Origin: Akkermansia muciniphila
Lineage (GTDB): Bacteria > Verrucomicrobiota > Verrucomicrobiia > Verrucomicrobiales > Akkermansiaceae
NCBI RefSeq assembly: GCF_040616545.1
Contig: NZ_CP156688.1
Coordinates: 2,356,001 to 2,420,000, forward strand
DNA: 64,000 nt
Reading direction: 5' to 3'
Part shown: positions 36,881 to 54,287 of the stretch, piece after piece
Layout of the letters: each line of letters begins with the position of its first letter
How positions within the stretch are numbered: the first letter of the stretch is position 1
Notes under the pieces: model-generated
The model's database searches: none
Told to the model about the DNA's origin: nothing
What the model saw: only the letters and a program-made list of their open reading frames with translations
Position numbers and translations under genes: made by a program

Positions 36881-37302
36881 GTCGCACCCTCACGGGTGCG
36901 TGGATTGAAACACGCCGTTCTCTTCCCATTTAACACTGAAAGAGAGTCGCACCCTCACGGGTGCGTGGATTGAAACTGCAAGGGAGGCCAATCTATCTTC
37001 ATCTTCAGGGGTCGCACCCTCACGGGTGCGTGGATTGAAACAAAACCCTGCTGCCTGTCGGTGCAAGCGGAATATCGTCGCACCCTCACGGGTGCGTGGA
37101 TTGAAACTTTTGCTGGTGAGAGCCATACAAACTCCCTCCTAGTCGCACCCTCACGGGTGCGTGGATTGAAACAAAGGCTTGAATCCTTCGCCGCCTTCGT
37201 TGTACTGTCGCACCCTCACGGGTGCGTGGATTGAAACCGCATCGGCATCCGTATAAGAATTGCCCGTTACTGTCGCACCCTCACGGGTGCGTGGATTGAA
37301 CC
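36881..37302 (+). CRISPR. CRISPR array 1, type I-C-like, 7 repeats / 6 spacers
   Basis: Repeats are 31 bp, starting GTCGCACCC and ending GTGGATTGAAAC, with stem GCACCC / GGGTGC around TCAC. Units start at 36881, 36946, 37011, 37077, 37142, 37207 and 37272, and spacers are 34-35 bp. The last repeat is altered at its 3' end (GAACC for GAAAC), as expected for the leader-distal end. The GATTGAAAC end gives the crRNA 5' handle, so transcription is on the plus strand. Confidence 0.97.
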
Positions 37303-37591: not shown

Positions 37592-37631
37592 AGAATGTTA
37601 CGTATTAATTACATTGAAGAGAGTTGATAGA

Positions 37632-38126
37632 ATGATCAGGAAGTGTTTGGAATCAGAATTGGAGACGATTTATGAAATTATCAATGATTCTTCCATAGCT
37701 TATAAGGACAGGATTCCTGCTGACAGGTGGAAAGAGCCTTATATGAGCATGGACGAATTGCAGGAACAGATTAACGATGGGGTCATATTTTATTGTTTGG
37801 AAGATGACCTGAATATTCTTGGTGTCATGGGTATTCAGGACCGGAAAGATGTTAACCTGATACGCCATGCGTATGTGAGAACGGATGCACGGAGAGAAGG
37901 GGTGGGAGGCCAACTCCTGCGGTATTTACAGAAAGACCAGGAAAAGCCTATTTTAATAGGTACATGGGCAGATGCTGTATGGGCCATAGAATTCTACCAG
38001 AAGCACGGTTTCCATGTAGTGGAGCGAGAAGAACAAAAACGACTGTTAAAGAAATACTGGGCCATTCCGGCAAGACAGGTGGAGACTTCTGTCGTTCTGG
38101 CAGATGGAAAATATGATGGGAAGTAG
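37632..38126 (+). CDS. GNAT family N-acetyltransferase
   Basis: A 164-residue GNAT protein. RHAYVRTDARREGVGGQLL (about 84-102) is the acetyl-CoA pyrophosphate loop and IEFYQKHGF is the motif B end. The ATG at 37632 is used; an in-frame TTG at 37614 is rejected. Its base composition is more AT-rich than the host genes and resembles the neighbouring cas region, so it probably came with the island. It sits between array 1 and the cas operon but is not a known Cas protein. Confidence 0.82.
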   Translation: MIRKCLESELETIYEIINDSSIAYKDRIPADRWKEPYMSMDELQEQINDGVIFYCLEDDLNILGVMGIQDRKDVNLIRHAYVRTDARREGVGGQLLRYLQKDQEKPILIGTWADAVWAIEFYQKHGFHVVEREEQKRLLKKYWAIPARQVETSVVLADGKYDGK

Positions 38127-38343: not shown

Positions 38344-39168
38344 TTAGAAACCTTCTATGATTTCAGGCTTCAAACCGGGAAGATCATATTTTTCTGCAAT
38401 GGTTCCATCCAGGGTGATTTCTATGGAGTGGTGAACCTTGGCGGAGGAGTATTGACCGCTTTTACAGTTATGTTCCCACCAGATGACTTTCTGGACGGAC
38501 ATGCTGCCTTCCGGGCGGGCAGAGGAGGCGTCTCCTTCAAACATCTGCGGGAGAACTTGCTTCAGGAGGGATGCGTCTTTATCAGAGAAGCCTGTCAGCT
38601 CGGCCAGTTGCGGATTGATTGCTCCAAAGAAGACATAGGTTCCCTTGTCTATTCTGTATTTCATTCCCATGGTGTCGGAAGTTTTTTTGCTGCCGTCTCC
38701 ATCATTGCTGACGCTTTTGGTGATTTGGGTGCTGGTGACGTTGACTGTATCCGTACTGAAAGCAGGTTGAATGCTCACCGGGCCACGGATGCCGATGGAG
38801 ACTCCTGTTCCTTTTTCTGCCCCTTTATCTTTTAGGGCAAAGACTTGTCCGAAGGCACGCACATCATACCATTCCTGGCAGGCTTTTTGCGCTAGTTCGG
38901 CAGATGTTCCTTTTTGCTTCAGAATGGGGGTGGCGCGCTCTTTCAGTGTTTTACAATCGTCTACACGCTTATCATCTGATTGGACAAAAATTTTCTGTCC
39001 CATGTCCAGCAGCTTGTTGCGGATTTTTCTCTTGAGACAGACGTCGGAGATTTCTCCCAGGCCTTCCAATGTCGTCCGGGGACGGTTGCCGTTAAGCGGA
39101 TCTCCGTTTGGATTGGCATTCGTAACGGTGAAGATGACGGCAAAGTCAATTTTATGATTAAGGCTCAT
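38344..39168 (-). CDS. cas7c: Type I-C CRISPR-associated protein Cas7 (Csd2)
   Basis: Cas7 forms the backbone of the I-C Cascade along the crRNA. The 274-residue protein has the family N-terminus IDFAVIFTVTNANPNGDPLNGNRP (residues 7-30), RNKLLD and VSIGIRGPVSIQPAFS. It is the last gene of the leftward cas3-cas5-cas8c-cas7 operon, 41 bp after cas8c. Confidence 0.95.
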   Translation of the reverse strand: MSLNHKIDFAVIFTVTNANPNGDPLNGNRPRTTLEGLGEISDVCLKRKIRNKLLDMGQKIFVQSDDKRVDDCKTLKERATPILKQKGTSAELAQKACQEWYDVRAFGQVFALKDKGAEKGTGVSIGIRGPVSIQPAFSTDTVNVTSTQITKSVSNDGDGSKKTSDTMGMKYRIDKGTYVFFGAINPQLAELTGFSDKDASLLKQVLPQMFEGDASSARPEGSMSVQKVIWWEHNCKSGQYSSAKVHHSIEITLDGTIAEKYDLPGLKPEIIEGF

Positions 39169-39209
39169 GATGTTGTTCTATGGTATGAGTTGATAATTGG
39201 TTGTAAGAA

Positions 39210-39608
39210 TTATTCTGCTGATTGAGCGTTTTTTTCTTCCTTAGTTTTATAAATGAATGCTCTTTGACAATGGTAGCCAAGCAGGTAAGCTCCTGTTAAC
39301 GGTGCATTGTCCAGAAGTTGTTCTAGAAGAAAGGTATCCATAATATTGTCTAGGTATTCGTCATATTTTTTCAAATAAGGAATAGTTTTCCCGTTTCTAT
39401 GCAGAATGTTCCTATAAGGCTGAATACTTTTTTCCAGCATGGGCCAGGTTTCAGCTGGACGCTGTTGGAAACGTTGCATGAATTTTTCCGCGTTGGTAGG
39501 GCGGGAGGTATCCGTGACCTTTAATGCTAATGCTTCAATAGCTTCCGCAACGGCTAAAAGACGGCCGAAGAGGTAACTGCGGTCTGTGATGGATGAATCA
39601 AGGCTCAT
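39210..39608 (-). CDS. cas11c: Possible Cas11c from an internal start in cas8c
   Basis: In characterised type I-C systems the small subunit Cas11c is translated from an internal start within cas8c. Here an in-frame ATG at 39608 (codon 532) would give a 132-residue helical protein starting MSLDSSITDRSYLFGRLLA, about the right size. No clear Shine-Dalgarno precedes it. This is inference from the known family arrangement. Confidence 0.5.
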   Translation of the reverse strand: MSLDSSITDRSYLFGRLLAVAEAIEALALKVTDTSRPTNAEKFMQRFQQRPAETWPMLEKSIQPYRNILHRNGKTIPYLKKYDEYLDNIMDTFLLEQLLDNAPLTGAYLLGYHCQRAFIYKTKEEKNAQSAE

Positions 39609-41201
39609 AATGTCTGAGGATGAAGTGTGTGTTTGAGGGTGATTATAAAGATAGATGGAGCAGGATACGCCCAGGGTCATTTCCCATTCCCACCATTCCA
39701 TGGAATGCCGTTTGGAGGCCTGGAGGATGCATTGTTTTTCCAAGTCCGGGGGGATGGGAAGGTTTTGAAGAACGCAGGGAAGCAGCCTAGAAAGGGCATG
39801 TTTTCTTAGCTTGTCATCCACTTTGCTTCCATAGGCCGCTTTGACAATCATGGAAATGGATGGTGCCCCGATATAGGAGCGGTCGTTCCCTTCCTTGTCT
39901 TTGGGGAGATGCTGCTTCCAGCTGGCCCTGGAATGCCAGGCAAGCAGGTTGTTAAGATAGTCAGAGACAGAGAATTCCTGAAAACTGGAAAGGGACATGC
40001 GTCCCGGAGATGCTGAGTTCAAACTTAGAACCAGAACCCGGTTGTCCATATCATTTTCATTCAGAGAAGTTTGCAGACGTTCTTTTCCGCCTCCCGATAG
40101 TTCTTTTTTGAATTGTTTAACCAGTTGGATCACCTGATCATTCGGAGTTGGTTGGTCAGGCGCGTAGTGTTGCCATTCTTGTACATTGCCGCAGGGGGAG
40201 GGTACATTGAGCAAGCCTGGAGACCATGCAAGAACGACAAGATCTCCATCATACCAGCCCTGGCGGGAGATAAGCCAGCGAAGCGCGCTGTGGGCCTTTT
40301 GAGTGACTTCCGTACTTACTCCGCAAGCTTCATCCGCTTCAATGAATTTTCCCCGGTAAGTGTAACCGGAACTGTCATTGGAGGAAATGAGTTTAGCTTT
40401 GTCTCCGGCGTTTCTGATCCGTGCCGGATGGTTGGCTGCCAGCGGTGCGGTTTGTCCCAGAATGTAGCACATTCCCCGCTTGGTAGATTTGGATTCCGTA
40501 TAGCGCCTCCAGGATTCGTACATGGAGGGGTCATGGTATACTTCCACAGGGCTTCCGTCCCTGCTGTTGACTTTCCACCGTATGAACGCATTTTCCTGGG
40601 TGGAGGCGCCAAGGATTTCAAAGATGGAAGGCATCTCCTGTTTGTCCCCTTTCCACGTAGGAATCAGGGTGTTGGTGGAATTTCCTACATGCAGGATTCC
40701 CTCTTTAACCAAGTCGGCGATTAGGGATTTTTTACGGATATAGGCCAGAATGGCTTTCAGTTTTATATTGTCGGGATCAAAGGCCGCCCATTCCGACAGT
40801 TGTTGTTCATATTGCTCATAAGATTCAAGCAGAATTTTAAGCTGCTTGGTCCGTTTGGCCGGGGTTTCAGCCGGAGGGAAGTAGTCCGTATTGTCTCCTG
40901 CCACATATTGGAGCTTGTCGCACAGAGGGTGGGGACACGCCCCGCTGGTGCGGCCTCCGGAAGCTTCCGTAACGGGAATGATGGTGGGCTGTGTGTTTGG
41001 ATTGTTGAGAGAGGCATTGACAAGCTCTCCCTGTTTGTTCAGGGTGATGGTGATGTGGGCATTCTGCATGCTATGATACAGCGGCAGAAGAGGTGTGATA
41101 AGGCGCTCCTTTCGGTTGCCTTGGGCCGGTTCTTTGTCAATGCGTCCTATGTAATCACGGTTTTGTTCGTAGGTAGCATATAAGGCGTGCATCCAGTTCA
41201 T
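39210..41201 (-). CDS. cas8c: Type I-C CRISPR-associated protein Cas8c (Csd1)
   Basis: The large subunit of I-C Cascade, thought to read the PAM. The 663-residue protein matches the Csd1 pattern: MNWMHALYATYEQNRDYIG at the start, ISRQGWYDGDLVVLAWSPGL in the middle, and RSYLFGRLLAVAEAIE in the C-terminal helical part. In characterised I-C systems the C-terminal part is also made separately as Cas11c, and an internal ATG at the right place exists here. It lies 16 bp after cas5. Confidence 0.95.
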   Translation of the reverse strand: MNWMHALYATYEQNRDYIGRIDKEPAQGNRKERLITPLLPLYHSMQNAHITITLNKQGELVNASLNNPNTQPTIIPVTEASGGRTSGACPHPLCDKLQYVAGDNTDYFPPAETPAKRTKQLKILLESYEQYEQQLSEWAAFDPDNIKLKAILAYIRKKSLIADLVKEGILHVGNSTNTLIPTWKGDKQEMPSIFEILGASTQENAFIRWKVNSRDGSPVEVYHDPSMYESWRRYTESKSTKRGMCYILGQTAPLAANHPARIRNAGDKAKLISSNDSSGYTYRGKFIEADEACGVSTEVTQKAHSALRWLISRQGWYDGDLVVLAWSPGLLNVPSPCGNVQEWQHYAPDQPTPNDQVIQLVKQFKKELSGGGKERLQTSLNENDMDNRVLVLSLNSASPGRMSLSSFQEFSVSDYLNNLLAWHSRASWKQHLPKDKEGNDRSYIGAPSISMIVKAAYGSKVDDKLRKHALSRLLPCVLQNLPIPPDLEKQCILQASKRHSMEWWEWEMTLGVSCSIYLYNHPQTHTSSSDIMSLDSSITDRSYLFGRLLAVAEAIEALALKVTDTSRPTNAEKFMQRFQQRPAETWPMLEKSIQPYRNILHRNGKTIPYLKKYDEYLDNIMDTFLLEQLLDNAPLTGAYLLGYHCQRAFIYKTKEEKNAQSAE

Positions 41202-41217
41202 CGCTTTTTTTCTCCTT

Positions 41218-41913
41218 TCATTTTTCCAGGCTCAGATCATCCAGTCCGCTGGATTTTGGCGGGCATGCCGCCATGGGACGCACATGTTTGACGATTTGGC
41301 ATTCCTCAGGACGAATGAAACGGACGATTCCATTTTCCATGACAGGACGCCAGAAACGTATGGAAAGCTCGTCTTTTCCCGTCTCGTCCGGATAGTTGAA
41401 TCCATGGAACATCAGGCCAAAGGAGGTTTCTCCGTAATTGTCATAGAAACTTTTACCTTCTCCAAAACGGCATGGCTCCACGTAAGCTTGGCATTCCCGG
41501 GTGCCCAGGGAGATATCCCGGCGGCCACCGCGTTCAATCATGCGCCGGGCGATTTCATAGTGTTTGCCATCTATCCGGTCCCTGCTCATATCTGGACGGT
41601 GCATGTTCCATTCAAAGTGCGCCTTAACCTGGTATTCCACATCCTGCAGGTAGGTATATACGGACAAATCCACGCCTGCCTCATGGTATTTAATCAATTT
41701 CATGTTTTTGGGGACCAGGCGGATGGGGGCTATTACCCTCACTTCATCAATTATCCAGATCAGAGTAGGTTTCCAGTAGATTGCTTTTATAATTCCCTTC
41801 AGGGCTTCATAAGTGGGGATTTGGTAGGAACATTTTTCTCCGCCTATCCGGGTGAGGGGGTCGGAGAAAAGAGCATATTTACCGTAAACCTTAAATTCGA
41901 CTTGATTGAGCAT
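41218..41913 (-). CDS. cas5c: Type I-C CRISPR-associated protein Cas5
   Basis: In type I-C, Cas5 replaces Cas6 as the endonuclease that cuts the repeat hairpin and then caps the crRNA 5' handle. The product has the core VYGKYALFSDPLTRIGGEK with SYQIPTYEALKGI, and the C-terminal HGFNYPDE region. The start at 41913 (231 residues) fits the family; a longer frame to 41967 would overlap cas3 by 31 bp and add residues unlike the family. It must recognise two repeat variants. Confidence 0.93.
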   Translation of the reverse strand: MLNQVEFKVYGKYALFSDPLTRIGGEKCSYQIPTYEALKGIIKAIYWKPTLIWIIDEVRVIAPIRLVPKNMKLIKYHEAGVDLSVYTYLQDVEYQVKAHFEWNMHRPDMSRDRIDGKHYEIARRMIERGGRRDISLGTRECQAYVEPCRFGEGKSFYDNYGETSFGLMFHGFNYPDETGKDELSIRFWRPVMENGIVRFIRPEECQIVKHVRPMAACPPKSSGLDDLSLEK

Positions 41914-41936
41914 GAATGTGAAGTTGTTGAAGATTC

Positions 41937-44408
41937 CTATGGCTGGGAGAGGGTTAGAGCGCCGCAAGTGTCACCCGGATGTGCGAGAAAGCCCAGGAAT
42001 GGATCATATTTATCTGCATTAACAGTATAAATATCCATTCTCTCCTGTATACGCATAATCTCTCCCGCATTCAAGTATTTTTCCAGATTTTGGTTGGAAA
42101 TGGGGACGGAATAGGCTCTGGATTTTTGAAGGCAGTCATTCCATTGTTTCCATTCCTCCTCCGTGTGGGGATTCATGTTCCAAAGTATTTTCTGGTATTT
42201 TTTGCCTTCTCCATATGAGGTAAGAACGGCCATTGTGTTTTCTTGTATGGGATGGTATTGATACGCTGCCGAGGCAAAGGCCTGGAAAAGGCGTAGAGAA
42301 CCGTATTTAGGCTGTTGGCGTAGAACTGGCATCAGTTTGAAATTCAGGGATAAAGCATCTTCCATGTTGGTGGAGAGGCCGGAACATGGGAACGGGTAAG
42401 ACAGGTGGTCATGATTGTGTGTTTGGGTGAGCTTGCCGTGAAATTCCTTAAAATAAAGGGCAACGGATTTATTGCCTAAGATTTCCTCCTCTTCAGGATC
42501 ACGAATCAGGTCCATTGCGATTTCCTTTCCGATTTCAAGTTCCGGTAAAGATCCCAGTTTTTCCAGTTTGTTTGCAGGATTGATAAGGATGATTTTTCCT
42601 CCTGGGCGCGAGGCGTCTCTGTTGCAGCGGCCTGCCGCCTGCGTGCAGGAGTCCAGACCGGCTACGCTCCGGATGATGACGTCAAAGTCCACATCCACTC
42701 CGGCTTCAATCAGGCCGGTGCTGATGCAGACTACGGTTTTCCCCATGGTCCTGGCTTTTTGCAGGGATACCTTGTCAATTTGGTTTGTAATGATTTCCTT
42801 CCTGTGGGCGGGGCACATGTTGGTGCTGAGGTGGAGGATGTGAGCCTCGGCATACAGGTTCCGGCAATCGGAGGCCAGTTTAGCTGCCAAGCTTTTGGTG
42901 TTGACGATTACCAGGGTAGGACCGTTTGCGGAAGCCTGCTCCATGATGAAATTTCTCATTCTTTCCACAGTCCAGTAATTGGAGGGTTTTATTTCACTGT
43001 AGACCTTGCATTGGCGGAATTGGTTAAATTGATCGAAGAAGGCTTGACTGTCCGGAATAATAGGTGTTTCAACAAGGTGATCATGCGCGTCTGTTTCTGT
43101 TGGCGCTTCCGGAGGGGTTGCGGTGCAGCGGATAGTGCTGCTGTGGCAAATGCCGGAGAGGAAGTCCAGAGAATGTTCAAAAAGCCGCAGGGAGGTGAGG
43201 GGGATGGCCTGTACTTCGTCAAAAATCACCACGGCATTCGCCAGGGAATGCATGCGGCGCATATGCTGCTTGCCGAATGCGTATAGTGCATTCAGGTATT
43301 GCACGGCTGTAGTGAGTATGATGGGTACATTCCATGTTTGAGTAGCTTCCATGTACCATGTTTTTTTTTCCGGCGTCCAGGGTTCCTCTTCTCCTGTTTT
43401 ATTGAGGGTCTCCTGCACCAGATTGGAATGGTGTTCCAGAATACATTCCTTGTATTCGTCTCCGAGCGCTTCTTTAATTGAATTTGCCGTCTGGTCAAGA
43501 ATGGAAGTATAGGGAATGACGTAAATGATGCGGGACAAATGATGCCGCCGCGCATGTTCCAAGGCGAATCTGAGACTTGAAAGGGTTTTTCCTGCACCGG
43601 TAGGCAGCGTAAGGCTCCATTTGCCAACGCGGCCTCCCGCGGCCTGAAAACATTCCTGCGACATGGCAGCCCTACTTTGGTTCATGGGTGTTTCAGTTTT
43701 GAAGGAACCAAGGTGTTTGTTCAGGTTGTTTTGCATTCCTTCCCAATCCGGTTTAGGAATGCTGTCGTGGCTTCCTCTGCCGGACGCACTTGTGTAATCC
43801 GCTTCAATCAGACTGCTCAGACAGAACCGTGCGATCAAACCATAATGGAATGAAACTTTTTTTTGGGAATGGCCGAACAGAGAGAGAATGCGTGTATGGA
43901 TATTCTTGAGTTCCCTCCCCAATTCCGGGTTTTCCAGAAGGGAATAATAGTGTTTTTTTTCCGAAGATGTTAGTTTTGATAAGATTTCATCAAGATGAGT
44001 TTTCTCTCTGGATTTTTCCATACGCTGTGCGAATACGGCATCGCCGGACATCGTTCCCCGGAAGCAGTCTATCAGAGAAGGATGATGGTGAGAGGCAATG
44101 CATAAAGCAATGATTTGCCTGAAAACAAAAAATTCTTCCGCTTCCGGTACCACGGGGAAATAGTTCCAGACAAATTGGGCACCAGCCGTGGAGTGATCTA
44201 TACCTCCTTTTTGGATTGGAGGAGTGAGGTTTTGCGAGAGGAAATCCATGTATTCCTGAAACTCCGCGCTCATTTTGCCGAAGTCATGCATGCCGCCAAT
44301 CAAGGCCCCCAGCTGTGGTAACCCTATGAAGGCAAGTAGGGTAGACATAGTACGAGTGCACTCCTGTTCATGGGTGGAAAGGAGTTGATGGGGACGGGCC
44401 TGGTACAT
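41937..44408 (-). CDS. cas3: CRISPR-associated helicase/nuclease Cas3 (HD + DExH)
   Basis: Cas3 is recruited by Cascade to unwind and degrade target DNA. The 823-residue protein has an N-terminal HD nuclease (His13, HD at 41-42 in GGMHDFGK, His72 in GIDHSTAG) and a superfamily 2 helicase: LPTGAGKTLSS (motif I), VIFDEVQAIP (motif II), and the motif VI region AAGRCNR. Motifs are intact, so interference could be functional. It is the first gene of the leftward operon, 96 bp from the diverging cas4 start. Confidence 0.95.
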   Translation of the reverse strand: MYQARPHQLLSTHEQECTRTMSTLLAFIGLPQLGALIGGMHDFGKMSAEFQEYMDFLSQNLTPPIQKGGIDHSTAGAQFVWNYFPVVPEAEEFFVFRQIIALCIASHHHPSLIDCFRGTMSGDAVFAQRMEKSREKTHLDEILSKLTSSEKKHYYSLLENPELGRELKNIHTRILSLFGHSQKKVSFHYGLIARFCLSSLIEADYTSASGRGSHDSIPKPDWEGMQNNLNKHLGSFKTETPMNQSRAAMSQECFQAAGGRVGKWSLTLPTGAGKTLSSLRFALEHARRHHLSRIIYVIPYTSILDQTANSIKEALGDEYKECILEHHSNLVQETLNKTGEEEPWTPEKKTWYMEATQTWNVPIILTTAVQYLNALYAFGKQHMRRMHSLANAVVIFDEVQAIPLTSLRLFEHSLDFLSGICHSSTIRCTATPPEAPTETDAHDHLVETPIIPDSQAFFDQFNQFRQCKVYSEIKPSNYWTVERMRNFIMEQASANGPTLVIVNTKSLAAKLASDCRNLYAEAHILHLSTNMCPAHRKEIITNQIDKVSLQKARTMGKTVVCISTGLIEAGVDVDFDVIIRSVAGLDSCTQAAGRCNRDASRPGGKIILINPANKLEKLGSLPELEIGKEIAMDLIRDPEEEEILGNKSVALYFKEFHGKLTQTHNHDHLSYPFPCSGLSTNMEDALSLNFKLMPVLRQQPKYGSLRLFQAFASAAYQYHPIQENTMAVLTSYGEGKKYQKILWNMNPHTEEEWKQWNDCLQKSRAYSVPISNQNLEKYLNAGEIMRIQERMDIYTVNADKYDPFLGFLAHPGDTCGALTLSQP

Positions 44409-44504
44409 GATGAACCATGATAGATGCCATGTATTTGTTTACAAGATATGAATTGATTTTTTTAACATTTTATTTAGGGTTCCATCCTGAACAGAATTTC
44501 CAAG
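44409..44504. promoter_or_regulatory. Divergent cas promoter region
   Basis: An AT-rich 96-bp gap between the cas3 start (leftward) and the cas4 start (rightward). It must hold promoters for both operons and is the natural place for joint regulation. No repeat unit or operator is evident. Confidence 0.4.
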
Positions 44505-45173
44505 ATGTCTTCAACTCTCTTCTCCATACCCTTGGCGGCATTGCAGCATTATCTGTACTGTCCCAGGTAGTGCGCTTTGATTCATCTGGAATGCGCATGG
44601 GAGGAGAACCAGTTCACGGCAGAGGGAAATGTATTTCATGAACGGGCTGATTCCGGGATGACGGAAACCCGCGGATTGAAAAAAGTGCTGCGCTCCCTTC
44701 ATGTTTCTTCCGCACAGTGGGGTATTCACGGGATTGCGGATGTGGTGGAAGCCGTTTATGCTGAAAAGGGCGGTGAGGCAGTGTCCATGACACCCGTGGA
44801 ATACAAGGTGGGGAAACCCAAGCCGCATCGTGCGGATGAAGTGCAGGTGTGCGCCCAGGCACTATGTCTGGAGGAAATGTTCAAGGTGGAAATTCCTTCC
44901 GGTTTTTTATTTTACGGAAAGACCCAGAGAAGGCTTGAAGTGGTATTTGACCAGGAATTGCGTTCCCTGACAGCCCAGGTTATCTGTAGTGCCAGGGAAG
45001 TGCTGACGGGCATTGTTACGCCATTGCCCCATTATTCCAAGGGCTGCAAGTCCTGTTCCCTGGTCAATGATTGCCTGCCTTCCGTGTGCCGGGAGCACAG
45101 GCAGGCCCTGAAAGCCCGGGTGGATGATGTGTTTGAGGACAGCCTTGGCGCAAGTGAAGCTGATGATTTATGA
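44505..45173 (+). pseudogene. cas4: cas4 with in-frame amber codon (TAG at 44568-44570)
   Basis: Cas4 is a RecB-like, Fe-S nuclease that trims and selects PAM-bearing prespacers. Reading from ATG 44505 gives MSSTLFSIPLAALQHYLYCPR, then TAG, then CALIHLECAWEENQFTAEG. The TAG replaces what is normally a glutamine (CAG, one base away) in the YCPRQ motif, right after the first cluster cysteine. The rest of the 222-codon frame is intact: GIHGIADVVEA, VEYKVGK, QVCAQALC and the C-terminal cluster CKSCSLVNDC. Restart at TTG 44577 or ATG 44658 would lose the first cysteine. It overlaps cas1 by 4 bp. It is a nonsense allele, a readthrough gene or a base error. Confidence 0.85.
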
Positions 45174-46189
45174 AGAAGCATTTAAATACCTTGTTTGTTA
45201 CACTGGAGGGATGCTGGCTGTCCAAGGACGGCGATACCGTGAAAGTGAATTCTGATGGGGCCTGCCTGCTCCGGGTACCCCTTCATAATCTGGAGGGCAT
45301 CGTAACGCTGGGGTGGGACATAGGAGTTTCCCCGCATTTGATGGGAGCCTGCGCTGAACGCGGCGTCACGCTTTCCTTTTGTAACCCTTATGGAAAGTTC
45401 CTGGCCGGCGTGCAGGGCTTTATGAAGGGAAATATCCTGCTGCGCCGGGAGCAGTACCGCTGGGCTGATGATGAGACAAGGTGGGTGGGCGTGGCACGGG
45501 AAATGATTGCGGCCAAGATTGCGAACGGCCGCAGCCTGCTTTTAAGGGCGCAGAGAACGTACGGGAAGGATTTATCAGAGGCGGTAGACCGTCTGGCGGC
45601 CTTTTGCCGCATGGCCCGCGGCTGTGAATCCGGCGATATCCTGCGGGGGATTGAAGGCTCTGCGGCAGAAACATATTTTTCCTGCCTCTCCCATTGCCAG
45701 AGGACGGAAGATCCGGAACTGGTGTTTGAAGGCCGCAACAGGCGGCCTCCCAGGGATTGTTTTAATGCCCTGCTGTCTTTTCTGTACAGTTTGTTGTGCC
45801 ATGATGCCCGGTCCGCTCTTGAAAGCTCCGGCATTGATGCCGCCGCCGGCTTTTTGCACCGTGACCGTCCGGGGCGTCCCGGTATGGCCCTTGATTTGAT
45901 GGAAGAATTCCGGGCACCCCTGGCCGATCGACTGGCCCTTACGCTGATTAACCGCAGGCAGATCACCGCAGATGATTTTGACAAGGAAGAGTCCGGTGCC
46001 TTTTTCCTGAAGGAAGACTCCCGTAAGAAAGTGTTGAACGCCTGGCAGGAACGGAAGAAGACCGTTCTGGTGCATCCTTTCCTTCAGGAAAAGACCACAC
46101 TGGGATTGCTGGTTCATATTCAAGCTCTTTTAATGGCGCGCCACCTGCGTGGTGATTTGGATTGTTATCCTCCCTTTATCAGTAAGTAA
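45170..46189 (+). CDS. cas1: CRISPR-associated endonuclease Cas1
   Basis: Cas1 integrates spacers with Cas2. The 339-residue protein belongs to the I-C group. Catalytic candidates are Glu167 in IEGSAAETYF, His230 in GFLHRDRPGRPGM, and Glu245 of LDLMEEFR by alignment with E. coli Asp221. All are present. Its start overlaps cas4 by 4 bp (ATGA), so the amber codon in cas4 could reduce its coupled translation. Confidence 0.95.
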   Translation: MKKHLNTLFVTLEGCWLSKDGDTVKVNSDGACLLRVPLHNLEGIVTLGWDIGVSPHLMGACAERGVTLSFCNPYGKFLAGVQGFMKGNILLRREQYRWADDETRWVGVAREMIAAKIANGRSLLLRAQRTYGKDLSEAVDRLAAFCRMARGCESGDILRGIEGSAAETYFSCLSHCQRTEDPELVFEGRNRRPPRDCFNALLSFLYSLLCHDARSALESSGIDAAAGFLHRDRPGRPGMALDLMEEFRAPLADRLALTLINRRQITADDFDKEESGAFFLKEDSRKKVLNAWQERKKTVLVHPFLQEKTTLGLLVHIQALLMARHLRGDLDCYPPFISK

Positions 46190-46191
46190 CC

Positions 46192-46482
46192 ATGTACATT
46201 CTCATTACTTATGATGTCTCCACGGAGGATAAGGCAGGGCAGCGCCGCTTGCGCCAGGTTGCCCGCGCCTGTGAAAATATCGGACAGAGGGTGCAGAATT
46301 CCGTGTTTGAATGTGAGCTGTCTCCGGCCCAATTGGTTGACATCAGGAGCAAGCTGCTTAAAATTATTGATGACGAAAGCGACAGCCTGAGGATTTATCA
46401 CATGGGTTCCAATTGGCATCATAAGATAGAACAATTGGGAAAGGAAAAAAGCTATGACATTTCCGGCCCCCTGATTATTTAA
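46192..46482 (+). CDS. cas2: CRISPR-associated endoribonuclease Cas2
   Basis: A 96-residue Cas2 ferredoxin-fold protein with MYILITYDVS (Asp8) and the RRLRQVARACENIGQRVQNS segment (residues 18-37). It forms the dimer core of the Cas1-Cas2 integrase. It starts 2 bp after the cas1 stop and its transcript runs directly toward the leader of array 2, 19 bp away. Confidence 0.95.
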   Translation: MYILITYDVSTEDKAGQRRLRQVARACENIGQRVQNSVFECELSPAQLVDIRSKLLKIIDDESDSLRIYHMGSNWHHKIEQLGKEKSYDISGPLII

Positions 46483-46500
46483 AGACTGTTGAACACGGCC

Positions 46501-46682
46501 TTTGCGCCAACCCCAAGCTCACACAAATTCCCCGGGAGGTCGGCGATAGATGTAATGCATTGGGAATTGAAGATTGACAGATGATCACCCCGAGAGGAGG
46601 CCGTGCAATGACGGTCTTCTCCGGGAGGTTGGCGCAAAGTATCATATGCACTGTTGAATAACAGTGCATATGATCATACGCG
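46501..46682 (+). promoter_or_regulatory. Leader of CRISPR array 2, with inverted-repeat module
   Basis: TTTGCGCCAACC (46501-46512) and its perfect reverse complement (46627-46638) bound a module of the same 137-bp length as in leader 1, measured from the shared TTGCGCC, again ending 44 bp before the first repeat. The first ~80 bp match leader 1, including CAAGCTCACA, TCGGCGAT and GATTGACA. The last 44 bp are different but include a palindromic CATATGCACTGTTGAATAAC region. Confidence 0.8.
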
Positions 46683-47378
46683 GTCGCACTCCACACGGAG
46701 TGCGTGGATTGAAACCACAAGCCCGCCCAACTGCCCTTAGCGAGCAATAGTCGCACTCCACACGGAGTGCGTGGATTGAAACAAGCCGGATACGGTGATC
46801 GTGCTGGACAAGCGCGGTCGCACTCCACACGGAGTGCGTGGATTGAAACATAGGCTAGTAGCAAAAGCCTTTGTAAGAATACCGTCGCACTCCACACGGA
46901 GTGCGTGGATTGAAACTTCTCATACATTTTTGCCCCACCATCCTTATAATGTCGCACTCCACACGGAGTGCGTGGATTGAAACGTCGTTACGTCCTTTTC
47001 GGTGATTCGCAACTCGGCGGTCGCACTCCACACGGAGTGCGTGGATTGAAACAGATGGTTGGTCATGTCTACTTCACCTTCGAACAGTCGCACTCCACAC
47101 GGAGTGCGTGGATTGAAACCGGCACCCGGAATATGTGCTGGAAGGGGAGGCCCGTCGCACTCCACACGGAGTGCGTGGATTGAAACAACAAATTCCACCC
47201 TCCCAGAGTCGAGGTCAAACGGTCGCACTCCACACGGAGTGCGTGGATTGAAACCGTAGTTCGGCCGCACATTCTCGCACTACGGCCGGTCGCACTCCAC
47301 ACGGAGTGCGTGGATTGAAACTGGATTCAACCAGGCGAACAACCTGAAACGGGAAGGTCGCACTCCATACGGAGTGCG
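46683..47378 (+). CRISPR. CRISPR array 2, type I-C-like, 11 repeats / 10 spacers
   Basis: Repeats are 33 bp, starting GTCGCACTCC and ending GTGGATTGAAAC, with stem GCACTCC / GGAGTGC around ACAC. Units start at 46683, 46750, 46817, 46884, 46951, 47020, 47087, 47154, 47222, 47289 and 47357, and spacers are 34-36 bp. The last unit has a C-to-T change in the loop (CATAC) and lacks the GATTGAAAC end, marking the old end of the array. It is co-directional with cas4-cas1-cas2. Confidence 0.97.
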
Positions 47379-47397
47379 ACTCTGCTGCCTGACAATG

Positions 47398-47437
47398 AAA
47401 AAGCTCTCCAGGCTTGTTTGGTCTGGAGAGCTTTTTT
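47398..47437 (+). terminator. Terminator after array 2
   Basis: GCTCTCCAG (47403-47411) pairs with CTGGAGAGC (47423-47431), extended by A/T pairs, followed by T6. It ends the cas4-cas1-cas2/array 2 transcription unit. Confidence 0.88.
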
Positions 47438-47459
47438 GTAGTGACGTATCATTAAAACT

Positions 47460-47717
47460 TCAGGAAGGAGTATGATTGTCCAGATTGAGTTCTGCGGGCG
47501 GGATAGCCTGGAGCAGGGCCAGAATGGGGTCCTGCGTTCCGGCTCCCGTTTCCTGCCGGCGTTTGAATTCCTCTTCTTCCTGCTGGAGGGCGGCCAGTTT
47601 GGTGTCTTCCACCAGGGCCTTGAATTTGTCCGCCTGGGAGTATTCGCCGTCCTTATCCCGGAAGACCCGGGCGAGCCAGCGGCGTTTTTCTTCCGTACTG
47701 AGCAGGGAGTCCTTCAT
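47460..47717 (-). CDS. Small phage-like protein, perhaps terminase small-subunit-like
   Basis: An 85-residue, charged, helical product. STEEKRRWLARVFRDKDGEYSQADKFKALVEDTKLA (residues 7-42) resembles the N-terminal helix-turn-helix of phage small terminases (adaptors that bind the packaging site), but it is short and the match is only by pattern. It overlaps the winged-helix gene by 4 bp. The phage-like neighbours support a phage origin. Confidence 0.45.
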   Translation of the reverse strand: MKDSLLSTEEKRRWLARVFRDKDGEYSQADKFKALVEDTKLAALQQEEEEFKRRQETGAGTQDPILALLQAIPPAELNLDNHTPS

Positions 47718-48057: not shown

Positions 48058-48678
48058 TTATTCACATTCCTCCGGGCAGGTGGGAGATTTGATTTTCCTC
48101 AGCAGGTCCAGCAGGGGGTGGGAGTCGTTGGAAAAGGATTGCACGGCGTTGACGGTGGCTGCCTGCGGAAGAATGATTTTATGGAATTCCTGGTGAAGGT
48201 TCTGGCGCAGGCTCTGGTTTCCCGTCATGGGCATAGCCAGTTTCTCCGCCAGGCGCGTAGCCAGGGCGTCCATGAAGAGGGGATCAAATTGGTTTGCGTC
48301 TTCAATGTCCGCAATGTAGCTCATGGGCAGTGGAGCGCGTGAGGCATGGATGCGGCGCCCTTGCATTTTCCATTCCGTACATTCCACATCCAGGACGCGC
48401 AGGCAGTCCGCAGGCAGCGTGAACTGGTAGGGGGTCAGGGAGTTGGGAGCCTGGGCGGAGACGGAGTCCAGCATGGTTTGCGTGGTGGCGAAGGTCCAGC
48501 GCGCCATGCAGAGGGTTTCCCTCCGGGCCGGGTGGTAGTGAAGAACGCAGAGACGGGATGCCGTGGATTCATTGGCAATCAGCGCATCCAGCGGCGCTTC
48601 CCCGATCTTGGAGAGCGCGGCGTTGCAAATATCCAGCGCGGAGGGGGTATCCGGCTGAAGTAAGGATTCATGAGTCAT
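48058..48678 (-). CDS. T7 gp11-like tail tubular / head-tail protein
   Basis: A 206-residue protein from ATG 48678. ALDICNAALSKIGEAPLDAL, then SRLCVLHYHPARRETLC and ARWTFAT, are typical of podovirus tail tubular protein A (T7 gp11) and similar head-completion proteins. The longer frame to 48816 adds an unrelated stretch. It is on the minus strand, pointing away from the portal gene, the opposite of usual phage order. I read it as a rearranged or domesticated phage gene. Confidence 0.6.
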   Translation of the reverse strand: MTHESLLQPDTPSALDICNAALSKIGEAPLDALIANESTASRLCVLHYHPARRETLCMARWTFATTQTMLDSVSAQAPNSLTPYQFTLPADCLRVLDVECTEWKMQGRRIHASRAPLPMSYIADIEDANQFDPLFMDALATRLAEKLAMPMTGNQSLRQNLHQEFHKIILPQAATVNAVQSFSNDSHPLLDLLRKIKSPTCPEECE

Positions 48679-48993
48679 AACGCCACATGTTTGCCGGATT
48701 TGGCCGGGTAATGCATCTTGTTTGGGAACTCCCTCTTTTATGCCACCGGTGGCATGTATGCGGACGTTTTTTCCCCAGGTGCATTTTCCGGCAATTGGTC
48801 TATTTGATAGACGCATGCACCGGTCCGGGAGTTTCCGGGCAGGTGAAGAGCGTGCCCTTTTCCTTTACGGTGAGAAGGCGCCTGAACCGCATGGCTTATC
48901 CGTGCGGCAGGCGTCCGGACCTCCACGGAGCCATTTATTCCGGCAAACGGAACGGGCCATCAATAAAACCATACATAGAAAGAAAAAGAGATT
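48679..48993. other. Intergenic region of phage-like block, with 16-bp palindrome
   Basis: About 315 bp between two divergent phage-like genes. The palindrome ATGCCACCGGTGGCAT (48740-48755) is the only clear element and could be an operator for the neighbouring winged-helix protein. No gene is recognised. Confidence 0.4.
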
Positions 48994-49209
48994 ATGGGAT
49001 TCATGAAACCATCCGCACCGCCCACTCCCGCGCCGGAGCAGACCATTCCAGTGAAGGCGGAGAGCGTGGGTGAGGAAACAGGAGAGGATTACCAGGCACG
49101 GGAGCGCCAGAGGCAGGGGATGATTTCCACCATTCTGGCACGCCGCCATTCTTCCGCCGGGCAGGAGGAGGCCAATCCCCGCACCCTGCTTAGGAAAACC
49201 CTGGGATAG
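48994..49209 (+). CDS. Small phage structural-type protein
   Basis: A 71-residue protein rich in Pro, Ala and Gln with a C-terminal NPRTLLRKTLG. Short proteins of this kind with a TLL-type tail often sit beside portal genes in T7-like phages. It lies 8 bp before the portal gene. Function is unknown. Confidence 0.5.
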   Translation: MGFMKPSAPPTPAPEQTIPVKAESVGEETGEDYQARERQRQGMISTILARRHSSAGQEEANPRTLLRKTLG

Positions 49210-49217
49210 CCGCCGCC

Positions 49218-50852
49218 ATGGAAGAGAGAGTTGCGGAGTTGAATTCCGTGTACAAGTCCCTGGCCGCCCAGCGCGCTCCCTGGGAGACGTGGTGGGACCG
49301 TTTGAGGGATTACGTGCTGCCGCGGCGCCTGAACCGGGAAGGGGATGTTTCCCAGCCCAGCAGGGACGCCATGGACCGCATGACGGATACCACCGCCGTG
49401 GAGGCTTGCCAGAAGCTGGCAAGCGGCCATATGTCCTACATCACGCCCAGCCATGACGTGTGGTTCAAGTGGTCCGCTCCGGATGACCGGGGCGGGGATG
49501 AAGCGGAGGCTTGGTATAACCAGTGTTCGGAGATTGCCTTGAAGGAGCTGTCCGTTTCCAATTTCTATACGGAGATCCATGAGTGTTTTCTGGACCGGGT
49601 GGCTTTGGGAACGGGTAGCCTGTTTACCGGGAATTCGTCAGACGGCAGGCTGCTGTTCACGAATATTCCGTGCGGGCAGTTCGCCTGCGCGGAGAATGCG
49701 GAAGGCCGGGTGGATACCTACGTGCGGGAGTTTACCTATACCGCCCACCAGGCACGTTCCATGTTCGGCCTGAAGGCGCTGGGCCCCCGTGCGCGGGAGG
49801 CGCTGGAACGCGGAGGCAATCCATACGCCACGTCCTTGAGGTTCCTGCATGTAGTTCGTCCGCGCGCCCGGCGCAGCCGCCGCAGGGAACAGGCCTCCCA
49901 CATGCCGTTTGAGAGCGTGTACCTGTCCCTGGATGACCAGGTGATCGTGGAGGAAGGGGGATACATGGAGTTTCCGTACCTGGTGACCCGGTTTTTGAAG
50001 TGGGGCAGCGGCCCGTACGGCCTTGCGCCCGGCAGGCTGGTGTTTCCCGCCATCCAGCAGGTGCAGTTCCTGAACCGTATTCTGGACACCCTGGGTGAGG
50101 TTGCCGCCTTCCCCCGCATTCTGGAGCTGGCCAACCAGATCGGGGAGGTGGACCTGCGGGCCGGCGGCAGAACCGTCATCACGCCGGAGGCCGCTTCCCT
50201 GCACCTTCCGCGGGAGTGGGCCACGCAGGGCAGGTACGACGTAGGGATGGACCGCCTGGCGCAGAAGCAGGACGCTATCCGGCGCGCCTATTACCTGCCC
50301 ATGCTGGAGCTCTGGAGCGGCCACCGCGGCAGCATGACCGCCACGGAGGTGATGGCCCGGGAGAACGAACGCGTGCTGATGTTTTCCCCGTCTTTCACGC
50401 TGTTTGTGAGTGACTTGTATTCCACCATGACGCGCATTTTCTCCCTGCTGTTCCGCATGGGCAAGTTCCCCAGGCCTCCCCGCGCCGTTCTGCGGGAGGG
50501 GAGGGACGGGGCCATTGCCGTTGGAGAACCCAGGGTGGTGTACCAGTCAAAGATTGCTCTGGTGCTCAGGCGCTTGCAGAGCGAGGGAATGGACCGCAGC
50601 CTTCAGCGCCTGAATATGATGATGCAGGCTGCGCCGGACCTGGCGGACCATGTGGACTGGGATCATTGTTTCCGCCTGTCCACCCGTGTGGACGGCGCCC
50701 CGGAGAGCATGCTGAGGCCATGGGCTGACGTCCAGGCCATGCGGAAGGAGCGTGCGGACCGCCAGCAGGAGGCCGCGCAGGCTCCGGCGGAAGAGGACCC
50801 GTACGCTTCCCTCAATCCTTTGCTTGACCAGTTAACAGCAATTCAGGAATGA
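49218..50852 (+). CDS. Phage portal (head-tail connector) protein, T7-like
   Basis: The portal forms the dodecameric ring through which DNA enters the capsid. The 544-residue product matches the podovirus Head-tail_con family: WWDRLRDYVLPRR, ACQKLASGHMSYITPSHDVWF, GTGSLFTGN, an Ala/Gly-rich loop, and a C-terminal segment with MTATEVMARENERVL. It is full length with no frameshift. It is followed with a 4-bp overlap by the Bbp19-like gene. No large terminase or capsid gene is in the cassette. Confidence 0.85.
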   Translation: MEERVAELNSVYKSLAAQRAPWETWWDRLRDYVLPRRLNREGDVSQPSRDAMDRMTDTTAVEACQKLASGHMSYITPSHDVWFKWSAPDDRGGDEAEAWYNQCSEIALKELSVSNFYTEIHECFLDRVALGTGSLFTGNSSDGRLLFTNIPCGQFACAENAEGRVDTYVREFTYTAHQARSMFGLKALGPRAREALERGGNPYATSLRFLHVVRPRARRSRRREQASHMPFESVYLSLDDQVIVEEGGYMEFPYLVTRFLKWGSGPYGLAPGRLVFPAIQQVQFLNRILDTLGEVAAFPRILELANQIGEVDLRAGGRTVITPEAASLHLPREWATQGRYDVGMDRLAQKQDAIRRAYYLPMLELWSGHRGSMTATEVMARENERVLMFSPSFTLFVSDLYSTMTRIFSLLFRMGKFPRPPRAVLREGRDGAIAVGEPRVVYQSKIALVLRRLQSEGMDRSLQRLNMMMQAAPDLADHVDWDHCFRLSTRVDGAPESMLRPWADVQAMRKERADRQQEAAQAPAEEDPYASLNPLLDQLTAIQE

Positions 50853-51130
50853 ACCAGGATACGACATTGCAGCAGGAGGCTTCCCTCAGGGAGGCCCGTC
50901 TTAGAAGGCGCCAGCTTCTCCGGGTGTTTGACACCCCGGACGGGCGGGAGGCGCTGACCTTTCTGGAGGCCCGCTTCCAGACTGATTTGCCCGTTTTTCA
51001 AGGCAGTCCCGGGAGCTACGACCCCCTGGACGCCATGAGGCGGGATGCCTACAGGGAGATATTCCTGTACATTCGCCGCCAGCTTCAACTAGCCATTAAA
51101 GAATCCACAGCAGAAGAAAAAAATGATTGA
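50849..51130 (+). CDS. Bbp19-like phage protein
   Basis: A 93-residue protein with FDTPDGREALTFLEARFQTD (27-46) and an MRRDAYREIFLYI segment, resembling the small Bbp19 family found between portal and scaffold genes of podoviruses. It overlaps both neighbours by a few bases, so the three genes are translationally coupled. Confidence 0.6.
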   Translation: MNQDTTLQQEASLREARLRRRQLLRVFDTPDGREALTFLEARFQTDLPVFQGSPGSYDPLDAMRRDAYREIFLYIRRQLQLAIKESTAEEKND

Positions 51131-52004
51131 TTCCATTGATAACCATACGGCCGCCCCCTCCGGGGAGGCGGATTTTTCCGGGGGAGTTTCTCCGGAGGCG
51201 GAAATTTTAACCGGGGCTCCCGCGCCGTCCGAACCTCTTCCCGGTCTTCTGGGGGAGGACGGAGGTTTTGTTCCGGACTGGTACGCCCGTTTTGATGAGC
51301 TGAAGGGGATGGAGAAGTCCCTTTCCAAGTTTAAGACGCCGGAGGCCCTGGCGAAGAGTTACGCGGAGCTGGAGCGCATGCGGCATTATCCCGGTGTGGA
51401 GAATGAGGAGCAGATGGAGCGGTTCCGGCGGATGGCCGGGCTTCCGGAGTCAGAGGAGGAGTACCGCCTGGAGCGTCCGGAATCCATGCCGGAAAGCGAG
51501 TGGAACGCCGGACTGGCGGAACGCATGGCCCGCACGGCCTACCGTTACGGCGTGCCTCCGGAAGCCATGAACGCTCTTCAGGAGACAATGTCCCAGGCGT
51601 ATCAGGAAGCCAGGGAACAGATGGCGGATTCCCGGCTGGAGATGGAAACCCGGGCGGAAGAGTCCCTGCAGCAGGAATGGGGCGCCAATTATGAGCGCAA
51701 CATGGGCCGTGCTACCGCCGCTCTCCAGCGGCTTGCGTCAGAGACGGGCGTGGATGCGGACGCCCTGCTTGATCATCCGGAGCTCGGTTCCAATCCGGAC
51801 GTGATCCGGCTGCTGTTCCAGGCCTCTCGCCTGCTGGATGAAGCGCCCCTTCATCATTCGGGGAACGGTACGCCTTCTCCTGCGGAGGAGGCCATGCGCA
51901 TGGAGTCAGACCCTTCCCACCCGCTTTATGATGCGTATATGAACGTGAACCATCCCAACCACAGATATGCCAATGAATTGTATGACCGCCTGACGTCCCG
52001 GTAA
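51123..52004 (+). CDS. Phage capsid scaffold-like protein
   Basis: A 293-residue acidic, Glu-rich, mostly helical protein with an N-terminal disordered stretch. WYARFDELKGMEKSLSKFKTPEALAKSYAELERM (residues 55-88) and the coiled-coil-like middle are typical of podovirus scaffolding proteins, which guide capsid assembly. The capsid gene that should follow is absent; the cassette ends with a terminator. Confidence 0.6.
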   Translation: MIDSIDNHTAAPSGEADFSGGVSPEAEILTGAPAPSEPLPGLLGEDGGFVPDWYARFDELKGMEKSLSKFKTPEALAKSYAELERMRHYPGVENEEQMERFRRMAGLPESEEEYRLERPESMPESEWNAGLAERMARTAYRYGVPPEAMNALQETMSQAYQEAREQMADSRLEMETRAEESLQQEWGANYERNMGRATAALQRLASETGVDADALLDHPELGSNPDVIRLLFQASRLLDEAPLHHSGNGTPSPAEEAMRMESDPSHPLYDAYMNVNHPNHRYANELYDRLTSR

Positions 52005-52380: not shown

Positions 52381-52455
52381 TGGTACGCGGTATAGGATTT
52401 GAACCTACGACCTCCACCATGTCAAGGTGTTGCTCTACCACTGAGCTAACCGCGC
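52381..52455 (-). tRNA. tRNA-Val (anticodon GAC)
   Basis: On the minus strand: acceptor GCGCGGT with ACCGCGT, D-arm GCTC/GAGC, anticodon loop TTGACAT with anticodon GAC, T-loop TTCAAAT, discriminator A, and an encoded CCA. The anticodon reads GUC and GUU valine codons. The first anticodon-stem pair is A-G, a mismatch. It has its own promoter and terminator. Confidence 0.95.
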
Positions 52456-52626: not shown

Positions 52627-53127
52627 ATGAACAGACATTCAATTTTTGCATTATGCGCCGTGCTCGGATTCAGCGTTTCCGGAGTTTCCATGGCCCAGGG
52701 TCTTCCGCCTGACAAGGAAGCCGCCGCAAAAGCGGCCAAGGCCGCCAAGGTGAAGTTCAAGTGGGGCAAGAGCATGAAAAGCGCCCAGAAGCAGTCGGAG
52801 GAGACGGGCCTTCCCATTGTTCTTCTTTTCACGGGAACGTCCTGGTGCGGTTACTGCATTAAGCTGGAGAAGGAAATTCTTTCCAAGAAGGAGTTCAAGC
52901 AAGGCATGGATGGCGTAGCCATCGGCGTCAAGTTTGAGTTCGGCAGTCCAGATTTCAGCAAATCTAAGGAAGCGAAGGAGTACGGCATTCGCGGCGTTCC
53001 CGCCATGGTGGTGGTAGACGCCCAAGGGAAGGAGCTGGGCCGCACGGGTTATGTTCCCGGCCGGTCTCCTGTCCAATACGTTGAGTTTTTCAAGAAGTAC
53101 GCTCCCAAGCCGGCGGAGGCCAGGTAG
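52627..53127 (+). CDS. Secreted thioredoxin-fold protein
   Basis: A 166-residue protein with a signal peptide (ending SMAQ, about residue 24) and a thioredoxin-like domain. WCGYC at 73-77 is the active CxxC and GVPAMVVVD contains the cis-Pro. This fits periplasmic disulphide reductases or thiol-disulphide enzymes of the Thioredoxin_7 group. It stands alone between tRNA-Val and the ferritin-like genes. Confidence 0.8.
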   Translation: MNRHSIFALCAVLGFSVSGVSMAQGLPPDKEAAAKAAKAAKVKFKWGKSMKSAQKQSEETGLPIVLLFTGTSWCGYCIKLEKEILSKKEFKQGMDGVAIGVKFEFGSPDFSKSKEAKEYGIRGVPAMVVVDAQGKELGRTGYVPGRSPVQYVEFFKKYAPKPAEAR

Positions 53128-53315: not shown

Positions 53316-53660
53316 ATGCCTGAATTTACAAATGCATTTAGCGGATTGAAGGAAGACCGGATGCTCACCCATGACGAATTGGTGAGGGCCATCCGTTTCA
53401 TGATCGCAGCGGAATATGAATCCATCCAGCTTTATACCCAGCTTGCCGCCTCCATTGACCATAAACTGGCCCAGGAAGTTCTTTGGGATATTTCCGATGA
53501 AGAGAAGGAACACGCGGGAGAATTCCTCCGTCTTCTCCAAGTTCTGGCCCCGGACGAACAGGGCTTTTACGACGAAGGAATGGGTGAAACCAATGAAAAA
53601 ATTGACAAGCTGAAAGCGTCCTGCCCGGACGGCAAATGCAGCAGTTCCTCTGCCCATTGA
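53316..53660 (+). CDS. Ferritin-like protein (rubrerythrin/encapsulated-ferritin-like), copy 1
   Basis: A 114-residue two-helix-type protein. LVRAIRFMIAAEYESIQLY and ISDEEKEHAGEFLRLLQVLAPDE carry the Glu and ExxH residues of a di-iron site. Such short proteins pack as dimers and some are cargo of encapsulin nanocompartments, storing iron. No encapsulin gene is in the window. The C-terminal tail CPDGKCSSSS carries a CxxxxC. It is nearly identical at its 5' end to the copy 300 bp downstream. Confidence 0.75.
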   Translation: MPEFTNAFSGLKEDRMLTHDELVRAIRFMIAAEYESIQLYTQLAASIDHKLAQEVLWDISDEEKEHAGEFLRLLQVLAPDEQGFYDEGMGETNEKIDKLKASCPDGKCSSSSAH

Positions 53661-53951
53661 CGGATTTCCCAGCCGCCGCTGTCAAACGCCCGCTTTTTCC
53701 TTCAGGGAGAAGTCGGGCGTTTTCTCTTGCCGTATGGGGCGCCCGTTTTGTCTCTCTCATTTCACATCCGTAGTGGAAGGCACGCCGGAGAGGGGGGCGG
53801 AAAATTGTTGTTTCCCCCGCCTCAAAACATGACGGGAAGCGGCATCGCCGCTATTAGACCATTTTCTATGGAAAAAGTTCAAAGAATGTCGCAAAAAAAT
53901 GTATGACAAAAACATTTTGAATACATTAGTGGTGATTTGAGTCATACCTGC

Positions 53952-54287
53952 ATGCCTGAATTTACAAATGCATTTAGCGGACTGAAGGAAGACCGGATGC
54001 TCACCCATGACGAATTGGTGAGGGCCATCCGGTTTATGATCGCAGCGGAGTATGAGGCCATCCAGCTCTATACCCAGCTTGCCGAATCCATCGACAACAA
54101 ACTGGCTCAGGAAGTTCTTTTGGATATTTCCAATGAAGAAAAGGAACACGCGGGAGAATTTCTCCGTCTCCTTCAGGTACTGGCCCCGGATGAACAGGGC
54201 TTTTACGACGAAGGAATGGGTGAAACCAATGAAAAAATTGACAAGCTGAAAGCGTCCTGCAAGGACGGTTCATGCAGTTCCCATTGA
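53952..54287 (+). CDS. Ferritin-like protein, copy 2 (tandem duplicate)
   Basis: A 111-residue paralogue of the preceding gene. The first 70 codons are almost identical (MPEFTNAFSGLKEDRMLTHD onward) and the tail CKDGSCSSH keeps two cysteines. The ATG at 53952 aligns with the copy-1 start; an upstream in-frame TTG is rejected. The di-iron residues are kept. The close match points to recent duplication. Both copies are separately promoted by ~290-bp gaps. Confidence 0.75.
   Translation: MPEFTNAFSGLKEDRMLTHDELVRAIRFMIAAEYEAIQLYTQLAESIDNKLAQEVLLDISNEEKEHAGEFLRLLQVLAPDEQGFYDEGMGETNEKIDKLKASCKDGSCSSH

Follow-up and report, generated by a model that had tools for sequence, protein, structure and literature searches.

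The cas4 gene of the type I-C CRISPR-Cas locus described here is interrupted by an in-frame amber codon. This is probably a recent, strain-level nonsense mutation in a locus of a known, divergent kind, which would impair accurate spacer acquisition. The nonsense allele itself is probably real and recent; its likely consequence is that Cas4 is lost, although a translational restart is possible. As a genome feature, the cas4 amber is ordinary. All positions refer to the window, i.e., the whole stretch of 64,000 nucleotides that was analysed (Table 1).

The cas4 frame and its locus

Translation from ATG 44505 gave MSSTLFSIPLAALQHYLYCPR, followed by TAG at 44568-44570 (codon 22) and then by CALIHLE and the remainder of the protein. 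The frame was closed by TGA 45171-45173, with 200 sense codons between the two stops. The first-pass annotation had described this YCPR-TAG-CALIHLE arrangement and a rest of the gene without other lesion; both descriptions were confirmed by translation. The window was identical to the corresponding genome locus (L001) at all 3,594 bases, and the TAG was also present in the source assembly, a single contig of 3,055,113 bp.

When read through, the frame scored 135.7 bits against the NCBIfam profile TIGR00372 (cut-off 65), as a member of the Cas4 family does. Against PF01930 of Pfam, the frame reached 74.1 bits (cut-off 22.7) with one TAG inside, and the part after the stop reached 51.8 bits alone. 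The host has no uninterrupted Cas4 frame, as codon 22 is TAG. A PF01930 search of the whole genome returned a single match, the broken cas4, and a second cas4 complementing in trans was therefore rejected. According to the available text of PMC4176176, the Fe-S cluster of Cas4 is held by one N-terminal and three C-terminal cysteines. All four are encoded in the window, in YCPR 5' of the stop and CKSCSLVNDC 3' of it, and no product of ordinary translation contains all four. The Cas4 of PDB entries 8d3l, 8d3m, 8d3p and 8d3q, which we take to be that of Bacillus halodurans, matched residues 9-197 of the read-through frame (E 6.7e-37), and its N-terminal and three C-terminal cysteines aligned with those of the frame. 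Unlike this Cas4, the window frame stops two residues past the N-terminal cysteine.

In the locus (38344-46482), cas7, cas8c, cas5c and cas3 lie on the minus strand and cas4, cas1 and cas2 on the plus strand; an array flanks the locus at either end. The type I-C gene set was found in full, with TIGR01863, TIGR01876, TIGR02589 and TIGR03640 over cut-off; the cas3 core and HD, cas2 and, when read through, cas4 were over cut-off as well. The frames of cas1, cas2 and the interference genes are open in the window. The best cas5c frames of the relatives encode 231 residues in six genomes and 237 in G008. The presumed leader of array 1 spans 46483-46682, and the stretch before array 2 resembles it by eye.

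Karcher et al. (2021, PMC8278651) reported a divergent type I-C system in Akkermansia; the available text gives a divergent gene order, two arrays and a TTC PAM. The window locus resembles that system in having cas3-cas5-cas8c-cas7 opposite cas4-cas1-cas2, in its flanking arrays, which most of the reported loci share, and in the TTC PAM. It differs in the amber of cas4, a broken cas4 being unmentioned in that text.

Table 1. Positions of the cas4 lesion, the neighbouring cas genes and the CRISPR arrays in the window
Feature	Position	Strand	Basis
cas4 frame, type I-C locus, broken at codon 22	44505..45173	+	translation; PF01930 with one TAG inside; TIGR00372 if read through
in-frame amber TAG; CAG/CAA in seven close relatives	44568..44570	+	sequence, translation, relatives' alignment
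AGGT, candidate ribosome-binding sequence of a restart; ends in the amber substitution	44565..44568	+	anti-SD pairing
possible restart frame, TTG, 198 aa, without residues 1-24 and the N-terminal cysteine	44577..45173	+	sequence; PF01930
cas1 (type I-C Cas1c); ATG overlaps cas4 stop (ATGA 45170-45173)	45170..46189	+	sequence, profile match
cas2	46192..46482	+	profile match
cas3 (HD nuclease and helicase)	41937..44408	-	profile match
cas5c, longest frame 249 aa; true start may be internal	41218..41967	-	profile match
cas8c/csd1	39210..41201	-	profile match
cas7/csd2	38344..39168	-	profile match
CRISPR array 1: 33-nt repeat, 11 repeats (last degenerate), 10 spacers	46683..47389	+	
CRISPR array 2: 31-nt repeat variant, 7 repeats, 6 spacers	36881..37302	+	

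Across eight genomes, we also observed three alternative forms of the interference cassette (38344-44408 in the window), each next to a cas4-cas1-cas2 unit that is conserved. The window form had 81% DNA identity to those of G004, G007 and G010, which were 97% identical among themselves. The form of the same-species strain CSUN-56 (G009, "AmIII") had 81% identity to those of G044 and G012 (97% to each other), and the G008 form 52-54% to all others. Between the window and CSUN-56, the cassettes were 58% identical, even though the two belong to one species and their Cas1 proteins are 98.8% identical. The three forms are unmentioned in the available texts of PMC8278651, PMC9241678 and PMC11683593, and the literature searches on them listed nothing on point. 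Between the CRISPR array and tRNA-Val (52381-52455) lies a short phage-like block (48058-52004) with Pfam matches to Head-tail_con (49218-50852) and to a Bbp19-like gene (50849-51130), and with no Pfam match for the frames at 48058 and 51123; the frames of the block are intact in CSUN-56. Two tandem, similar small genes at 53316-53660 and 53937-54287 both scored over the Rubrerythrin cut-off.

Codon 22 in relatives and the age of the stop

The first-pass annotation had proposed the codon in sister strains as a check. The same-species comparison comprised one other genome, CSUN-56, in which codon 22 is CAG and cas4 is unbroken. CAG or CAA occupied this codon in all seven close relatives (CSUN-56 and six others). 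The post-stop part of cas4 found matches in 31 of 76 genomes of the genus, its own included. Codon 22 was examined in 29 loci other than its own, 23 of which, with stand-alone Cas4 frames, were counted; six long-frame loci (about 560-580 codons) and three more long-frame matches were left out. The residue was glutamine in 21 of the 23 loci, arginine in two and a stop in none. Because the frame is open apart from the amber and shows homology over its whole length, and because the stop stands where these loci encode glutamine or arginine, the amber frame can be taken as more than a product of chance. In the phylum (383 genomes), at least two of the 150 Cas4 matches listed contained an internal stop, namely the window cas4 (TAG) and that of G320 (TGA). 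Judging by titles and abstract openings, the literature searches listed no report of a naturally occurring nonsense allele of cas4 in Akkermansia.

The cas4 differences that separate the window from CSUN-56 were placed on either lineage by G008 for synonymous changes and by the majority of six relatives for the others. The cas4 of the window lineage had accumulated six synonymous, no missense and one nonsense change, and that of the CSUN-56 lineage three synonymous and three missense changes; two synonymous changes were unplaced. Since the window lineage shows no missense change besides the stop, the amber looks young, with no sign of long decay. We must also note that the absence of missense changes is likewise expected of a cas4 still in use, and that the numbers are small. 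Four cas4 bases of the window were seen in none of the seven relatives compared, at 44513 (where the CSUN-56 base is equally private), 44568 (the amber), 44577 and 44792. In cas1, two missense changes, at 45254 (E to D, codon 29) and 45527 (C to G, codon 120), were likewise seen in none of the seven.

The identity between the window and CSUN-56 was 68% over 44420-44479 and 95-97% over 44480-44599, with few differences within 44505-44577. Given this profile and the scarcity of differences, the alignment would favour neither side of the question whether the amber was brought in by a recombination tract from the adjoining swapped interference cassette.

Other readings of the amber codon

Translation might restart at TTG 44577 and yield a Cas4 of 198 residues that keeps the RecB nuclease core and leaves cas1-cas2 still coupled, which we consider unlikely. 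This TTG is the first in-frame ATG, GTG or TTG after the amber, and the next in-frame start, ATG 44658, would drop the His of GNVFHER. TTG 44577 is itself a private C-to-T change (CTG leucine to TTG) six bases past the stop, and two of the four window-private bases of cas4 are those that create the stop and the restart codon. However, silent changes from CTG to TTG are common, this one was spotted after the fact, and some more distant relatives (e.g. L009, L011 and L012) have TTG at the same codon without the stop. The AGGT located 8 nt 5' of TTG 44577 gave a predicted anti-SD pairing of -6.3 kcal/mol, compared with 0.2 kcal/mol for the cas4 ATG and -5.0 kcal/mol for the CSUN-56 sequence. This score is weak evidence for a restart, since several internal codons had better upstream pairing, down to -11.4 kcal/mol. 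The cas4 frame free of missense changes on the window lineage also agrees with a restart. The effect of losing the cluster varies among proteins in the available text of PMC4176176, where Cys-to-Ala mutants of Pcal_0546 and SSO1391 lacked the cluster and kept nuclease activity, whereas cluster loss abolished the activity of SSO0001. The restart product matched PF01930 from profile position 20, as opposed to position 4 for the whole frame.

The amber restarts of lacI are examples of translation restarting after early nonsense codons. As in lacI, a start-type codon soon after an early stop could give a shortened protein; unlike the lacI restarts, the one proposed for the window is a prediction from sequence signals. 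A literature search on translational restart after early nonsense codons found nothing on point. The truncated Cas4 lacking one cluster ligand, which had been suggested in the first-pass annotation, could arise by way of the restart at TTG 44577 instead of by readthrough. It is highly doubtful that the amber and the CTG-to-TTG change nine bases further form a matched pair, by which a Cas4 of 198 residues without one cluster ligand would be made and would still choose TTC prespacers together with Cas1-Cas2, type I-C adaptation then having no need of the N-terminal cysteine.

An assembly error, with T in place of C at 44568 and an intact cas4 in the strain, is quite improbable. The change is a single substitution, and CSUN-56, the one further genome of the species, reads CAG at this codon. 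On the other hand, the assembly is one contig, and a comparison of 22 other window frames with CSUN-56 revealed no stop on either side, in a test that leans, as the frames were chosen for being open in the window. Of these frames, 21 aligned over their full length and one was cut by the end of the CSUN-56 stretch compared; 17 scored over cut-off against a Pfam profile. When the 34 longest non-overlapping CSUN-56 frames were in turn compared with the window, 16 were of equal length there. The remaining 18 comprised cas4, five frames that belong to the swapped cassette or adjoin it, four that lie inside the array, and eight others. Two of these eight were examined closely: in CSUN-56, one starts earlier in the same frame, and the second, of unassigned function, is ten codons longer at its end. 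Some long reads are prone to errors at CCWGG sites. Substitutions near CCWGG were not enriched, since 31 of 486 is about the number expected from 365 sites in 64 kb, and a systematic sequencing error at this motif was rejected for want of any excess.

Near-cognate or suppressor decoding of TAG that tunes the dose of Cas4, as the first-pass annotation had also offered, is barely credible: beyond the TAG, the frame is intact and has acquired no missense change, but the suppressor tRNA to be looked for was absent, as none of the 52 tRNAs detected (ARAGORN, all tRNA matches of the genome) has the anticodon CUA, and the genome has two genes of the RF1/RF2 family. One tRNA-Leu has the anticodon UAG, which reads CUA codons. 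TAG had been taken for an ordinary stop here, and indeed it ends four of the 28 listed window frames (cas3 and those at 27835-31350, 37614-38126 and 52627-53127). Moreover, the absence of a stop at codon 22 from the 23 stand-alone loci of the genus argues against conserved recoding. On these grounds, a suppressor tRNA or recoding was rejected.

Spacers and consequences for adaptation

The first 24 bases of eight spacers (1, 2, 3, 4, 5, 7 and 8 of array 1 and spacer 1 of array 2) were searched for in viral contigs. Two of them, the leader-proximal spacers 1 and 2 of array 1, had a match, with 0 and 1 mismatches over 34; both protospacers were preceded by 5'-TTC, the PAM of type I-C. The other six had no match in the viral contigs. 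The TTC of spacers 1 and 2 fits a stop younger than these spacers, or a Cas4 still working; TTC is also expected from selection for working spacers.

None of 15 window spacers (first 24 bases, the tenth spacer of array 1, before the degenerate repeat, being left out) was found among the 56 distinct spacer starts of CSUN-56, and none occurred in the six other relatives. On the spacers compared, the arrays therefore differ wholly within the species, via new acquisition or replacement. In CSUN-56, two arrays with different repeats (L032 and L033) have the same first spacer (first 28 bases compared), which suggests that both are supplied by a single adaptation machinery. Self-targeting as a reason for the loss was rejected, as three spacers compared with the genus and the others compared with the window had no match beyond their own array copies. 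Spacers 1 and 3 of array 1 and spacer 1 of array 2 had no match outside their own arrays in 73 genomes of the genus, the host genome included, at up to 3 mismatches. The others, compared with the window only (up to 6 substitutions, matches inside 46000-47500 skipped), found their own array copies alone.

If the amber is a recent strain-level nonsense mutation, as we prefer to read it, translation of cas4 would stop after 21 residues, and the nuclease responsible for prespacer trimming and for the PAM check would be absent or scarce. Translation of cas1-cas2 may drop as well, since the start of cas1 lies within the stop of cas4 (ATGA). The strain would keep interference from its existing spacers, and new spacers would be rare or acquired with poor PAM fidelity. 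The mutation would then be later than the newest matched spacers, or without effect on their PAM choice. The first-pass annotation had spoken of a fresh knock-out of adaptation. Of its four readings, a fresh loss has the best support, from the intact sister allele, the lack of missense drift and the TTC PAM of the newest matched spacers. Knock-out of adaptation is too strong, because cas1 and cas2 are open and, according to the available text of PMC6519985, a small amount of integration took place in vitro without Cas4.

Should a short Cas4 be made and work, the full set of Fe-S ligands would be unneeded for PAM-faithful acquisition. In the case of plain loss, the strain would be a natural cas4-negative one beside the cas4-intact CSUN-56 of the same species. 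Provided that the difference between the two strains in their interference cassette is taken into account, the pair could show the part of Cas4 in type I-C adaptation outside model systems.
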